Virus record (IMG/VR): IMGVR_UViG_3300032331_004188
Location: 1-44,745 of that record
Length of the DNA stretch: 44,745 nucleotides
Direction: 5' to 3' (one strand)
Source: a virus
The position numbers were made by a program, and so were the translations under genes. The notes beneath the pieces were generated by a model. That model did no database searches and was not told the origin of the DNA. It saw only the letters and a list, made by a program, of their open reading frames with translations. Positions 10,493 through 21,069 of this stretch are shown here, piece by piece (positions within the stretch are counted from its first letter, which is position 1; each line of letters opens with the position of its first letter).

Positions 10493-10536
10493 GGAACAAA
10501 TGTTCCTATTGCATCTTGACTTTCTGTTGTTAAATA
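10493..10536 (+). promoter_or_regulatory. Promoter with adjacent LexA-like inverted repeat
   Basis: The dyad GGAACAAATGTTCC (10493-10506) has the GAAC-N4-GTTC core of Gram-positive-type LexA boxes and stands directly before a possible promoter TTGCAT (10509-10514), 16-base spacer, TAAATA (10531-10536). The gene at 10563 follows. The dyad could be an operator, a small hairpin or chance; the promoter match is moderate. Confidence 0.35.
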
Positions 10537-10562
10537 AACAAAAACAACTAAATAGAAAAAAT

Positions 10563-11051
10563 ATGCCTAAAAACATCTCAATTAAGAAAGTTGCAGTAAA
10601 TGTTCCCGGAACATCTACAGCTAAAGACGTGGGTGGACTCAAGAGTTCGCGCTACGAAAAACTGCAAATGAGCTATGGCTCGATCTCAAAAGACGACTAT
10701 AGCAGCGGAGACACTTTGGTTTTCTCTGATGTCCCCGCCCGCGACATCATCAGAGCCACAATCATCGTTAAAACCGCAAATCCTGCTGAGCTCTATGTGT
10801 ATCCCTTCACGGATGTGACCGGAACACTTACGCTTAACGCCACCTCGAAAGAAGATATCAGCTATGTGATCGAATACGTTCGAGGCACAGGCCGCCCTGG
10901 TACAGCAACAAATCAGGGTGATCTCTTGAAGGTTACGATCAATACCTCAGCCGCTCCTGGCACAGCTTCTGGTGACGAAAATGTCATTGGCGCTACCGGT
11001 GCAACTGGCGCAAGAGGATCTACTGGCGCAACTGGTGCTACAGGATTATAA
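10563..11051 (+). CDS. Virion-like protein with short collagen-like tail
   Basis: A 162-residue protein. Residues 1-140 look like an all-beta domain (alternating hydrophobic and polar strands). The C-terminus is a short Gly-Ala-Thr collagen-like stretch ([19 protein letters not shown]). An upstream in-frame ATG at 10500 lies in the promoter region; the ATG at 10563, after an A-rich leader and in the TATG context, gives the sensible N-terminus MPKNISIKK. The gene is flanked by its own promoter-like region and a strong terminator, so it is probably expressed alone and abundantly. Codons are more GC-rich than in its neighbours. A decoration or fibre protein is likely; the exact role is unknown. 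Confidence 0.7.
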   Translation: MPKNISIKKVAVNVPGTSTAKDVGGLKSSRYEKLQMSYGSISKDDYSSGDTLVFSDVPARDIIRATIIVKTANPAELYVYPFTDVTGTLTLNATSKEDISYVIEYVRGTGRPGTATNQGDLLKVTINTSAAPGTASGDENVIGATGATGARGSTGATGATGL

Positions 11052-11070
11052 TCCTAATTATAGTATAGAA

Positions 11071-11105
11071 AAAGAGGCGCAGCCAAAAGCTGCGTCTTTT
11101 TTTTT
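11071..11105 (+). terminator. Strong intrinsic terminator
   Basis: A 12-base-pair stem with a GCGCAGC/GCTGCGT core closes on a CAAAA loop and runs into nine T residues. It ends the transcript of the gene at 10563-11051. Confidence 0.9.
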
Positions 11106-16290: not shown

Positions 16291-16324
16291 AGTGTTCTGG
16301 CAATTAACCTTATTAAAAAAATAT

Positions 16325-18175
16325 ATGAGTAAAGAATTTCTGTCTAAAATTGTACACTACCGCACATACGCTAAATACCTTTCTGATGAACAGAGAAGAG
16401 AGACCAAAGACGAAACCATCCAGAGAAATCTAGATATGCACGTTAAGAAGTTTCCAAAGCTTAAAGACGAGATCTCTAAGGCATACGAGCAGGTCTTTGC
16501 AGGCAGGGTGGTCCCAAGCATGCGTAGTTTTCAGTTTGCTGGAGAGGCTATCGAGCGCAGACACAACCGCATGTACAACTGCAGCTTCCTGAACATTACG
16601 TCTGTAAAAGACTTTGCAGACTTGTTTTATATGAGCATGAGCGGCGCAGGTGTAGGCTTCAGCGTCAAGAAACGTCACGTATCACTGCTGGACGCTATTC
16701 CTGAAGGCTTTGTTGTTGCTCCCTACATTATCGAAGACTCTGCCGAAGGCTGGTGCGATTCTCTGGTAGCCCTGTTTACTAACCCTGATCTGCAGTTCGA
16801 CTATACTCAAATCAGGCCCATGGGTAGCCCATTAAGCACAGGAGGCACCTCTAGTGGTCCCAAGGCGCTAATCAAAATGCATGCAAATGTTCGAGCTATA
16901 CTCAGGAAAGCAGAAGGGCGTAAGCTTACCCCATTTGAATGCCATAGAATCTGCTGTCTGGTGGCTGACTGTGTTGTGGTGGGAGGTGTACGTAGAGGTG
17001 CGCTGATTAGTCTTTTTGATGCGGATGAGCAAGAGCTTGTTCATTGCAAGGCAGGAAACTGGTGGGAGAAATATCCAGAACTCGCTAGAGCAAACAACAG
17101 TGCTGTCTTGAGAAAGGACGACCCTGAGTTTGACAGCAAGGCTGCTTATATCATACAGGCATGCTTCGACGGAGGGCAAGCTGAGCCGGGGTTATCGCTT
17201 ACAGGAGATAGTGATGACCTCGGCTTTAACCCATGTCATGAGATTGCGCTAAGATCCCGAGGCGTCTGTAATCTGACAGAAGTTAACGCAGCAAAGTGCT
17301 TTTCGAGAGAAGAGTGGCTTCAGGCTGTAGAAGCTGCTACAATTATAGGAACTCTACAAGCATCATACACTGATTTCAAATATGTTCACCCAGGATGGAA
17401 AGAAAACGCAGAAGATGAATCGCTTCTCGGTGTATCAATCACTGGTCAGGCTGAAAATCAACAAATTCTCACTAATGAGAACCTGCGTGATGGAGCCAAG
17501 CTCGCCGTCGAAGCCAACAAAATCTGGGCAGCAAAACTCGGCATTAAGCCTGCAAGAAGGATTACTACCACCAAGCCTAGCGGAACAAGTAGCAGCTGGC
17601 TCGGAACTACAGCAGGAGTTCATGCAGGACATGAGATCCGATATATTAGGCGAGTTCGCATGGATAAGTTCAGCGCTCTTGCTAAAGCATTGGCCAAACG
17701 ATTCCCTAGCTTTGTTGTTGATGACCCTTTCAACAGCAGCGACATGATCATGCAGGTGCCAATTAAACTATATGATACCACACTACTCAGATCTCAGGAA
17801 ACTGCCGTACAATGTCTTGAGCGCGTTAAAAAACTGTACGATAATTGGATTGTGCCTGGCCACATCGAAGGCACTAACACTCATAACATCAGCCTTACGA
17901 TCAACTACCACGAGCATGAAAAAGAGGCGATAAAGAAGTGGATGATTGAGAACAAAGACTCTTATTATGGGATTAGTCTTATTCCTTATGACGGTGGAGA
18001 TTATAAGTACTTGCCTTATAGCCAGCCCCCGCATCCGGAAGTGTTTGAAATCCTTGATAAAGCGTTCACCCAAATAGCTGACAACTTCAGCTTTGAAGAT
18101 ATCAAAGAAAGAAAAGATAATACTGATTTCAAAGGCGAAATTGCCTGCGCCGGAGGAGCCTGCACTATTGACTAG
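16325..18175 (+). CDS. nrdJ: Adenosylcobalamin-dependent class II ribonucleotide reductase (monomeric, RTPR-like)
   Basis: The 616-residue protein reduces ribonucleotides to deoxyribonucleotides with a B12 coenzyme. Motifs of the Lactobacillus leichmannii RTPR type are present: MYNCSF (C86, equivalent to C119), NPCHE (C304 and E306, equivalent to C408 and E410), C315 (equivalent to C419) with the exact spacing, KPSGTSSSWLG, and a C-terminal redox pair CAGGAC (C608, C613). RTPR is about 740 residues, so this is a short version. A GTG at 16292 is in frame, but the ATG at 16325 after an A-rich leader and in the TATG context is preferred. A terminator follows the stop. The cofactor-making adenosyltransferase lies at 18886-19434. 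Confidence 0.93.
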   Translation: MSKEFLSKIVHYRTYAKYLSDEQRRETKDETIQRNLDMHVKKFPKLKDEISKAYEQVFAGRVVPSMRSFQFAGEAIERRHNRMYNCSFLNITSVKDFADLFYMSMSGAGVGFSVKKRHVSLLDAIPEGFVVAPYIIEDSAEGWCDSLVALFTNPDLQFDYTQIRPMGSPLSTGGTSSGPKALIKMHANVRAILRKAEGRKLTPFECHRICCLVADCVVVGGVRRGALISLFDADEQELVHCKAGNWWEKYPELARANNSAVLRKDDPEFDSKAAYIIQACFDGGQAEPGLSLTGDSDDLGFNPCHEIALRSRGVCNLTEVNAAKCFSREEWLQAVEAATIIGTLQASYTDFKYVHPGWKENAEDESLLGVSITGQAENQQILTNENLRDGAKLAVEANKIWAAKLGIKPARRITTTKPSGTSSSWLGTTAGVHAGHEIRYIRRVRMDKFSALAKALAKRFPSFVVDDPFNSSDMIMQVPIKLYDTTLLRSQETAVQCLERVKKLYDNWIVPGHIEGTNTHNISLTINYHEHEKEAIKKWMIENKDSYYGISLIPYDGGDYKYLPYSQPPHPEVFEILDKAFTQIADNFSFEDIKERKDNTDFKGEIACAGGACTID

Positions 18176-18885: not shown

Positions 18886-19434
18886 ATGAGCATTGCTACA
18901 AAAACAGGAGACAAAGGATACACCGGACTATTATTTGGTGAACGCGAAAAGAAATCTGCAAAAATATTTGAAGCTGTTGGAAATGTGGATGAGCTTAACG
19001 CTAGTATAGGTATGCTAAAAGCCACTATTCTTGATAAACTCTCAGGCAAACCGTTTGTCGCTTTTATAGAAGAAGTTCAGCACAGACTTACACTATACAT
19101 GGGCGAACTTGTCGCAGAACCTCAGAATAGAGAAAAATATGTGCAGATGTATGATTCAATCAAAGAAGCTGATCTAGAGCAGCTTGACATGACTGTGAAG
19201 ACTCTTGAAAAAGACCCTAATACAAAGCAGTCAGGTTGGGTTCTGTATGGTAACTCTACGGTAGGTTCGACAGCAGATTTTGCCTCAAAGGTATGCAGAA
19301 GAGCAGAAAGAAGCGTAGTCTATCTGGATCCTGAGCATAATCTTCGCCCTATCCTGCTGCAATATATCAACAGATTAAGTGACGTGCTGCATTTACTCGG
19401 AAGATATTTTGACGGTTTGCAAAAAATATCTTGA
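18886..19434 (+). CDS. PduO-type cob(I)alamin adenosyltransferase
   Basis: A 182-residue protein that transfers the adenosyl group of ATP to cob(I)alamin, making adenosylcobalamin. The family signatures are all present: TKTGDKGYTG (residues 5-14), GNVDELNASIG (32-42), RRAER (138-142) and the C-terminal INRLSDVLHLLGRYF (161-175). Length is normal for the PduO/MMAB family. The ATG at 18886 is in the TATG context. Its position next to an adenosylcobalamin-dependent reductase gives it an obvious partner; this pairing is inference, but family membership is secure. Confidence 0.93.
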   Translation: MSIATKTGDKGYTGLLFGEREKKSAKIFEAVGNVDELNASIGMLKATILDKLSGKPFVAFIEEVQHRLTLYMGELVAEPQNREKYVQMYDSIKEADLEQLDMTVKTLEKDPNTKQSGWVLYGNSTVGSTADFASKVCRRAERSVVYLDPEHNLRPILLQYINRLSDVLHLLGRYFDGLQKIS

Positions 19435-19890: not shown

Positions 19891-20772
19891 ATGCTATTTA
19901 TACTACTTGTCGCTTTTAGCGCTATGTTTGTGGCCGGATGCGCGGCCTTCTTCAGTATCAAGGGGCTTATTGTCCTGTTTTCTGGAAGCAGTCTCGCAAT
20001 CGGAATTATGGCCAGTAGCCTTGAGATAGGCAAACTGGTTGCCGCTAGTTTCCTGCATACCTATTGGAAGCAAATCAGCTTTCTTTTGAGAACATACCTC
20101 TGCGTGGCCGTGCTTACCTTGATGGGTATTACCAGCCTAGGGATCTTCGGATTTCTTACAGGTGCTTATCAGGTACATTCTGCCACAGTAAATACTTTTG
20201 AGAGCAAGATTGAGGCTCTCACTACAGAAAAAGTGTCAATCGAAACAGGCGTAGCTGAACATAGTGAACGCATCAAAAGTCTCACCACGCTGAGACAGGA
20301 CCAGGAACAGCGAGTCAAGGACGCCGGCAACTATAAAGCTCCTAGAGAGCAGGCCTACAAGGCCATCGAAGAAGCCAACCTAGAGATTAAACAAAAAGAA
20401 GAATCTTTGACTAAAGAAAGAGAAAGAATTATTGAAATTGAGAAAGAAATATCTGAACTAAAAATAGGTATGAACACCACTACTGATGTAGGATCATTTA
20501 AATTCATCGCAGCCGCCACAGGCTCCACTGTAGACGAAGCTGTAAGGTATTTCATATTTGCTTTGATCTTTGTATTCGACCCTCTCGCAGTAACACTTGT
20601 TCTAGCCTGGAATAAACTATTGGAAGCTAGAAGAGAAAAGCGAGCTCAGGAAGAAGCTGCCTATATTGCTAGTCTTAAACCCGTCGAATTCGATGGGATT
20701 AACGCCTCGCAAGATATCCCGCAAGTTTTCGGGGTATCAAACGATGACAAGACTAGCTTAAAAAAAAAGTAG
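19891..20772 (+). CDS. Membrane protein with central coiled coil (0-frame product)
   Basis: A 293-residue protein. Hydrophobic segments at about 1-23, 25-45 and 65-92 are followed by a long charged coiled coil (about 103-190) and a fourth hydrophobic segment (about 222-242, containing FIFALIFVFDPLAVTLVL), then a soluble tail. Similar four-segment proteins with an FDPLAV motif occur in marine phages; their role is unknown. The 0-frame ends at TAG immediately after an A AAA AAG heptamer, and the -1 frame stays open for 86 more residues, so a longer C-terminal tail is likely made by frameshifting. Confidence 0.8.
   Translation: MLFILLVAFSAMFVAGCAAFFSIKGLIVLFSGSSLAIGIMASSLEIGKLVAASFLHTYWKQISFLLRTYLCVAVLTLMGITSLGIFGFLTGAYQVHSATVNTFESKIEALTTEKVSIETGVAEHSERIKSLTTLRQDQEQRVKDAGNYKAPREQAYKAIEEANLEIKQKEESLTKERERIIEIEKEISELKIGMNTTTDVGSFKFIAAATGSTVDEAVRYFIFALIFVFDPLAVTLVLAWNKLLEARREKRAQEEAAYIASLKPVEFDGINASQDIPQVFGVSNDDKTSLKKK
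20763..20769 (+). other. Candidate -1 programmed ribosomal frameshift site
   Basis: The heptamer A AAA AAG lies in the correct phase (codons TTA AAA AAA AAG TAG) and is identical to the slippery site of E. coli dnaX. The 0-frame stop follows at once. Ten bases downstream ATTCTA (20779-20784) can pair with TAGAAT (20800-20805). A one-base error in the nine-A run is the alternative. Confidence 0.6.
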
Positions 20773-21029
20773 ACGCTGATTCTAGCATAGGTATTTCTGT
20801 AGAATTAGACCCTAGAGAAATACTAGAGCAGCGCATAATCCCGGACGCTCAAAAGGAAAAGGTTGAGCTGTTTCAGGCAGACCCTGTTTCGGGTTTAGCC
20901 ATAAGTGAAGTAAAAAAGATAGAAGTTGACCTGGACTCTGATGAAGAAGATCCGCTCATTGAATCTCAACTTACTGAAGCAGAACAAATTAAATTAAAAA
21001 AAGAAAAGAAAAACAGGAAAAAGACTAGT
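20769..21029 (+). CDS. -1 frame extension of the membrane/coiled-coil protein
   Basis: After slippage at 20763-20769 the -1 frame reads VDADSSIGISVELDPREI and continues for 86 residues to a stop at 21027-21029. It is acidic (DSDEEDPLIESQL) and ends in a Lys/Arg-rich stretch. It has no start codon of its own near the beginning. The complete frameshift product would be about 379 residues, adding a cytoplasmic tail to the membrane protein. The composition looks protein-like and not like a shadow frame. Confidence 0.6.
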
Positions 21030-21069
21030 GGACCAAATAACTCTATAGTCAAATTTTAAAGCTTACTAC

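Follow-up and report, generated by a model that had tools for sequence, protein, structure and literature searches.

A conserved A9 run as the probable transcriptional slippage site of a membrane-protein gene in large tailed phages

Transcriptional slippage at a poly-A tract has been proven for the membrane-protein gene tssM1 of Citrobacter rodentium, in which the tract is A11, and is also known from tssM3 of Yersinia pseudotuberculosis (PMC4256274). In one of these two species the slipped product of tssM is the long form, in the other it is the short form; both forms of TssM1, as well as the proportion between them, are of importance (PMC4256274). In many bacterial genomes, counter-selection of slippage in genes becomes visible at about nine A or T (PMC1088944), and most transcription errors in A/T runs are insertions of a single base, which increase with run length (PMC5574713). 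According to a GeneTack analysis, a variable direction of the shift among orthologues denotes transcriptional realignment, whereas a fixed direction denotes ribosomal shifting (PMC3711429). Regarding phages, the one slippage proposal that was found relates to Campylobacter phage CPt10, in which a methyltransferase gene is disrupted (PMC2853527); the open-access papers searched contained no description of recurrent poly-A slippage within a single phage protein family.

The locus compared here with these systems lies in a window (i.e., the whole stretch of DNA that was analysed) of 44,745 nucleotides, IMG/VR virus record IMGVR_UViG_3300032331_004188. The reading frames and the sites at their junction are the following:

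19891-20772, plus strand: 0-frame ORF of the short form, a membrane/coiled-coil protein of 293 aa and 32.4 kDa
20760-20768, plus strand: A9 run, candidate slippage site, at which an added A in the mRNA would fuse the frames
20763-20769, plus strand: in-phase heptamer A_AAA_AAG, slip site of the rival ribosomal reading
20770-20772, plus strand: 0-frame stop TAG, directly 3' of the slip site
20769-21059, plus strand: -1 frame extension, 96 codons and TAA, predicted acidic tail of the long form, ending SGPNNSIVKF

The phase TTA AAA AAA AAG TAG described in the initial annotation, with A_AAA_AAG directly before the 0-frame stop, was confirmed at 20758-20772. The -1 frame had been described as open for 86 codons up to 21029; it is indeed open, running from 20757 as far as the stop codon 21057-21059, but its length after the slip is 96 codons, beginning with GTA at 20769, which is 10 codons more. 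The long form would comprise 389 aa (43.1 kDa) with an acidic extension (pI 4.6), and the short form ends in ...SLKKK. The presence of an A9 run is not unusual by itself (two in the window versus 2.8 expected from dinucleotide shuffles). The long open frame is unusual, as the -1 frame stayed open in one of 3000 dinucleotide shuffles of the extension.

The 0-frame product is predicted to consist of the following parts:

19894-19950, plus strand: predicted transmembrane helix 1, aa 2-20 (hydropathy; helix 2-20 in the model)
20098-20154, plus strand: predicted transmembrane helix, aa 70-88 (hydropathy; model)
20143-20520, plus strand: predicted long helices or coiled coil, aa 85-210 (model helices 85-145 and 149-210)
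20551-20607, plus strand: predicted last transmembrane helix with the family motif FDPLA, aa 221-239 (D230, P231, A233 and N241 invariant in 40-48 homologues)

An AlphaFold2 model of the short form consisted entirely of helices, with a mean pLDDT of 83.7. Alignments of 40 and 48 homologues displayed a common layout of N-terminal hydrophobic helices, a long coiled coil, the last transmembrane helix with FDPLA..N and a variable charged tail. By alignment and model, the window protein is assigned to an uncharacterised FDPLA membrane/coiled-coil family of large tailed phages. Homologues also occur in Xanthomonas phage XacN1, Stenotrophomonas phages RAS14/CM1, Salicola phage SCTP-2, Pelagibacter phage Mosig, the Flavobacterium immuto phages and Mel-JY01. 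Searches of Pfam, PHROGs and the PDB and a fold search yielded no function, only coiled-coil or helix-bundle matches and unnamed phage homologues. Every Pfam match of the window protein was below its cut-off. An identity with DUF4407 or Tetraspanin was considered and rejected, the 48 homologues giving only weak matches, at best with an E-value of about 1e-4 (Tetraspanin) and 1e-3 (DUF4407).

A search of IMG/VR yielded 16 close relatives of the gene; with near-identical copies counted once, the window's clade (clade I) has 12 distinct members. All 12 carry exactly A9, followed by G (T in L013), an immediate TAA or TAG and then a -1 frame of 45-118 codons. Pairwise dS between the 0-frame parts was mostly about 1 or more (0.3-0.5 in the three closest pairs), and the median dN/dS of the extension was 0.18 in the -1 frame, as compared with 1.03 and 1.87 for the two alternative readings of this DNA. 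Since the extension is conserved in relatives with near-saturated synonymous sites, chance is excluded as its origin; the 0-frame part and the extension are evidently both coding and under selection. Runs of A8 or A10 and an unconserved second frame, named in the initial annotation as findings that would speak against a frameshift signal, did not occur in the clade. Recoding at A9 is almost certainly real and conserved, and the two C-terminal variants of one membrane/coiled-coil protein that had been proposed are to be expected, given a conserved functional -1 extension. A homopolymer error of sequencing or assembly, or a decaying pseudogene, could be suspected on the grounds that homopolymers are error-prone and that in-frame sisters exist. 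This reading was ruled out by the same A9 and the same frame in 12 diverged members from many metagenomes; the strong purifying selection on both parts and the conserved stop right after the run likewise argue against it.

Outside the clade, single-frame homologues of 319-404 aa were found (L014/L015, L040, L041, L044, L045, L048, L050, L052 and L094). The identity to the sister homologues was 61-69%, and 48-69% across all single-frame homologues compared. The single-frame proteins end in, e.g., GNNDSIVTNG, GKNNSVITK or SGDNNSIIRG, as compared with SGPNNSIVKF in the -1 extension of the window (NNSI-type). Because the single-frame sisters end in the same type of motif, the extension of the window represents the ancestral C-terminus, and in clade I a slip site came to lie in front of it. 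The fusion of the extension in one frame in the sisters also bears on a further explanation, in which the extension is a separate overlapping gene that is translated by re-initiation after the 0-frame stop. In phages, re-initiation at start codons adjacent to a stop is common. The initial annotation had noted that no start codon lies at the beginning of the extension, and this is borne out for its entire length, which contains no ATG, GTG or TTG; in the relatives, no conserved start was found near its beginning either. A separate gene is thereby hardly conceivable.

Wider scans raised the number of distinct homologues to 131 and that of homologous stretches in IMG/VR to more than 500; a scan of genome contigs yielded no relative. 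A run of at least nine A after the last membrane helix was present in 35 of the 131 distinct homologues, and in 30 of these 35 the tail is out of frame. A 0-frame tail shorter than 25 aa never occurs among the 131 without a run of at least nine A. All genes that need a change of frame have A9-A11 after the last membrane helix, with the sole exception of the pair L197/L199, which has A7. Such runs are rare in these phages: 198 kb of record G001 contain two runs of at least nine A, the slip site among them, and no run other than that of the slip site occurs in 80 kb of G009 or in 73 kb of G011. In the homologues L023, L205 and L271, A9 runs lie in frame within an otherwise continuous tail and may slip to shorter forms. 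In a tree built from the N-terminal part of the homologues, the out-of-frame state occupied five positions, namely the window clade, L097/L153 (A10), clade III (around L171-L176 and L234-L256), L226/L232 and L197, with at least seven changes, two of which are back-changes inside clade III. The same gene in related phages would have acquired the arrangement separately about four or five times.

Clade III differs from the window clade in that its runs comprise A9, A10, A11 or A12 and start in all three codon phases. Its terminal motif F.RLF[KR]N is in the -1 frame in most members, in the 0 frame in L241 (= L170; A12) and L244 (A11), where the run is kept though no shift is needed, and in the +1 frame in L254, L255 and L279 (all A11, from three assemblies). 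The short tails of clade III were under weaker purifying selection (median dN/dS 0.59). As the tail occupies the -1, 0 or +1 frame while the run varies from A9 to A12, the clade III genes point to transcriptional slippage by the directional criterion (PMC3711429). One added A is what 29 of the 30 out-of-frame members need, which matches the bias of RNA polymerase towards single-A insertion (PMC5574713). The features by which transcriptional slippage is recognised were thus found as follows: a run of about nine or more A/T at the junction, a selected coding sequence in another frame, and variable direction and phase, the last in clade III and not in the window clade.

Some close relatives in clade III are one A apart and have their tails in different frames (L170 with A12 and L171 with A11; L244 with A11 and L243 with A10), as would suit phase variation at the DNA level, in which replication slippage alters the run length and each virion makes one form only. 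An on/off switch of this kind would give mixed run lengths, whereas the run length was constant within species across assemblies (A10 in all of L247-L253 from seven assemblies; A11 in all three +1 members) and A9 was constant over the whole diverged window clade. Phase variation is therefore very improbable.

Programmed transcriptional slippage on A9, yielding two C-terminal variants of one membrane protein, is probably the correct explanation. RNA polymerase would slip back on A9 and add an extra A in a fraction of the transcripts. Unslipped mRNA would be translated into the 293-aa short form, and A10 mRNA would be read through the former stop into the 389-aa form with its acidic tail of 96 residues, so that the polymerase would set the ratio of the 32-kDa to the 43-kDa isoform. 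We infer the transcriptional level of the slip, the isoform ratio and the place and function of the tail, which would be cytosolic and recruit a partner in a proportion fixed by slippage; for the role of the tail, TssM1 serves as the analogy.

Clade I alone does not discriminate between slippage of the polymerase and of the ribosome, because its frame relation (uniformly -1) and run length (A9) never vary and all members except L013 have the heptamer in the phase that is ideal for the ribosome. Programmed -1 ribosomal frameshifting of the dnaX or IS type, in which tRNA-Lys would re-pair one base back on A_AAA_AAG and translation would go on in the -1 frame, is accordingly to be weighed. It is in line with the in-phase heptamer of the window and of every other clade I member but L013, with the same phase at A10 in clade II and with a constant direction of the shift inside clades I, II and IV. 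Any A9 within a reading frame also contains an in-phase ribosomal heptamer A_AAA_AAA. In L013, the run is followed by T, giving A_AAA_AAT instead of A_AAA_AAG. A ribosomal -1 shift cannot make the +1 cases and leaves the kept runs of the 0-frame members L241 and L244 unexplained; the direction of the shift, fixed inside the window clade, is not fixed among orthologues. Six A and a G suffice for ribosomal slippage, yet A9 or more was found in all cases but one. That one case is the pair L197/L199, the same protein in two assemblies, with A7 only (TTA AAA AAA GTT TAG) and a conserved motif FFRGYFKSY in the -1 frame; this suits ribosomal slippage, and the lineage possibly uses ribosomal -1 shifting.

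The stimulators of ribosomal frameshifting were sought on both sides of the run. The hairpin described in the initial annotation is as follows:

20779-20805, plus strand: hairpin of 6 bp, ATTCTA/TAGAAT, arms 20779-20784 and 20800-20805; weak, unconserved and judged to lie outside the signal

The six-base-pair hairpin thus exists; as part of a conserved signal it did not hold, for it is weak (about -3.2 kcal/mol as an isolated segment, the 81-nt downstream region folding differently) and absent as a conserved feature in the relatives. No conserved downstream stem-loop was found among the clade members, whose folds vary in place and strength. Folds in the window, L005, L007, L009 and L013 were fairly stable and dissimilar (z -2.2 to -3.6), and no significant downstream fold was found in L003, L008 and L010. 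No Shine-Dalgarno-like element was found upstream of the run in the window, and only L003, L005, L006 and L013 had matches, which were scattered and differed in their distance from the run. Stimulators are absent at some tailed-phage frameshifts (PMC5009743). Taken together, ribosomal frameshifting is an unlikely explanation, and the dnaX-like ribosomal -1 shift given as the mechanism in the initial annotation is probably wrong, as what stays constant throughout the family is a run of at least nine A, whatever its codon phase and whichever frame (-1, 0 or +1) contains the tail. Ribosomal and transcriptional slippage could both contribute.

A conserved gene neighbour was not found across the clades. 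Genes for a cobalamin adenosyltransferase and PhoH lie near the gene in clade I and its sisters, a tRNA nucleotidyltransferase gene near L097 and an exonuclease gene near L226. In the window, a ribonucleotide reductase of the apparent adenosylcobalamin type (16292-18175; weak Pfam matches) is adjoined by a cobalamin adenosyltransferase (18886-19434; PF01923, E-value 4e-37), and the phage may carry the maker of the cofactor of its own reductase. The PhoH-like protein of L040 (5010-6647, minus strand) is split by an intein that contains a LAGLIDADG endonuclease domain. An intrinsic-terminator-like sequence with a stem GCGCAGC...GCTGCGT and a subsequent T9 was seen by eye, unscored, at 11070-11105 of the window; the ORF upstream of it (10500-11051) has an end with collagen-like GATG repeats.

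In L280 and L281 (records G003 and G005), and also in G001, G002 and G004, RNA polymerase beta (PF00562) and beta' (PF00623) domains were found in one ORF of about 1000 aa, in which the motif GADSDGD or GGDSDGD replaces NADFDGD. ORFs of this type in large contigs of the window clade and its sisters are identified as predicted single-chain two-barrel RNA polymerases. Related single-chain phage polymerases, e.g., YonO, are reported to be processive but less accurate than multi-subunit RNA polymerase (PMC5467207). The enzyme is a lead for the slipping polymerase rather than evidence, because single-frame members have it too and its link to transcription of the slip-site gene is only putative. A tentative proposal, more likely wrong than right as a whole, is that this membrane protein family of tailed phages took up poly-A slippage about five times at one and the same site, behind the last membrane helix, and thereby fixes the proportion of tailed to tailless isoforms; in the window clade, the slipping enzyme could be the single-chain two-barrel RNA polymerase that the phage itself encodes.

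Recoding in phages is discussed mainly as ribosomal frameshifting; if the transcriptional explanation is true, slippage of the polymerase joins it as a natural means of setting an isoform ratio. With runs from A7 to A12 and a tail in the -1, 0 or +1 frame, the natural variants lend themselves directly to testing whether the polymerase or the ribosome slips. Annotation is corrected as well, since in these phages the gene appears truncated and the conserved tail at the C-terminus is overlooked. As a mechanism, slippage of this kind is known; its repeated use within a single phage family seems not to have been described.

Among the closest known systems, tssM1 likewise has a poly-A tract that immediately precedes a premature 0-frame stop in the gene of a membrane protein; an added A gives the full-length protein, with a short and a long variant. 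Unlike the phage family, tssM is a bacterial secretion gene with two cases; the phage tracts range from A9 to A12, are located downstream of the last membrane helix and are spread over about five clades. Thermus thermophilus dnaX shares with the window the nine A, at which transcriptional slippage produces mRNAs in all three frames and two protein lengths; its 0 frame encodes the long form, whereas that of the window encodes the short form, and L241 and L244 resemble the Thermus arrangement. The -1 ribosomal frameshift of Escherichia coli dnaX uses the same heptamer A_AAA_AAG in the same phase as found in the window, but has an upstream Shine-Dalgarno element and a downstream stem-loop and yields a shorter product, whereas the window is without a conserved stimulator and its shifted product is longer. 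As in lambda G/GT and the other -1 frameshifts of phage tail chaperones, a phage gene would give rise to a short protein and to one extended in the -1 frame, although the protein here is a membrane protein and not a tail assembly chaperone, and the slip sequence is another one. IS630-type transposases and other IS elements likewise display slippage on A/T runs, with orthologues that need -1 and +1 restoration (PMC1088944, PMC3711429); there the product is the transposase of a mobile element, here a viral membrane protein.
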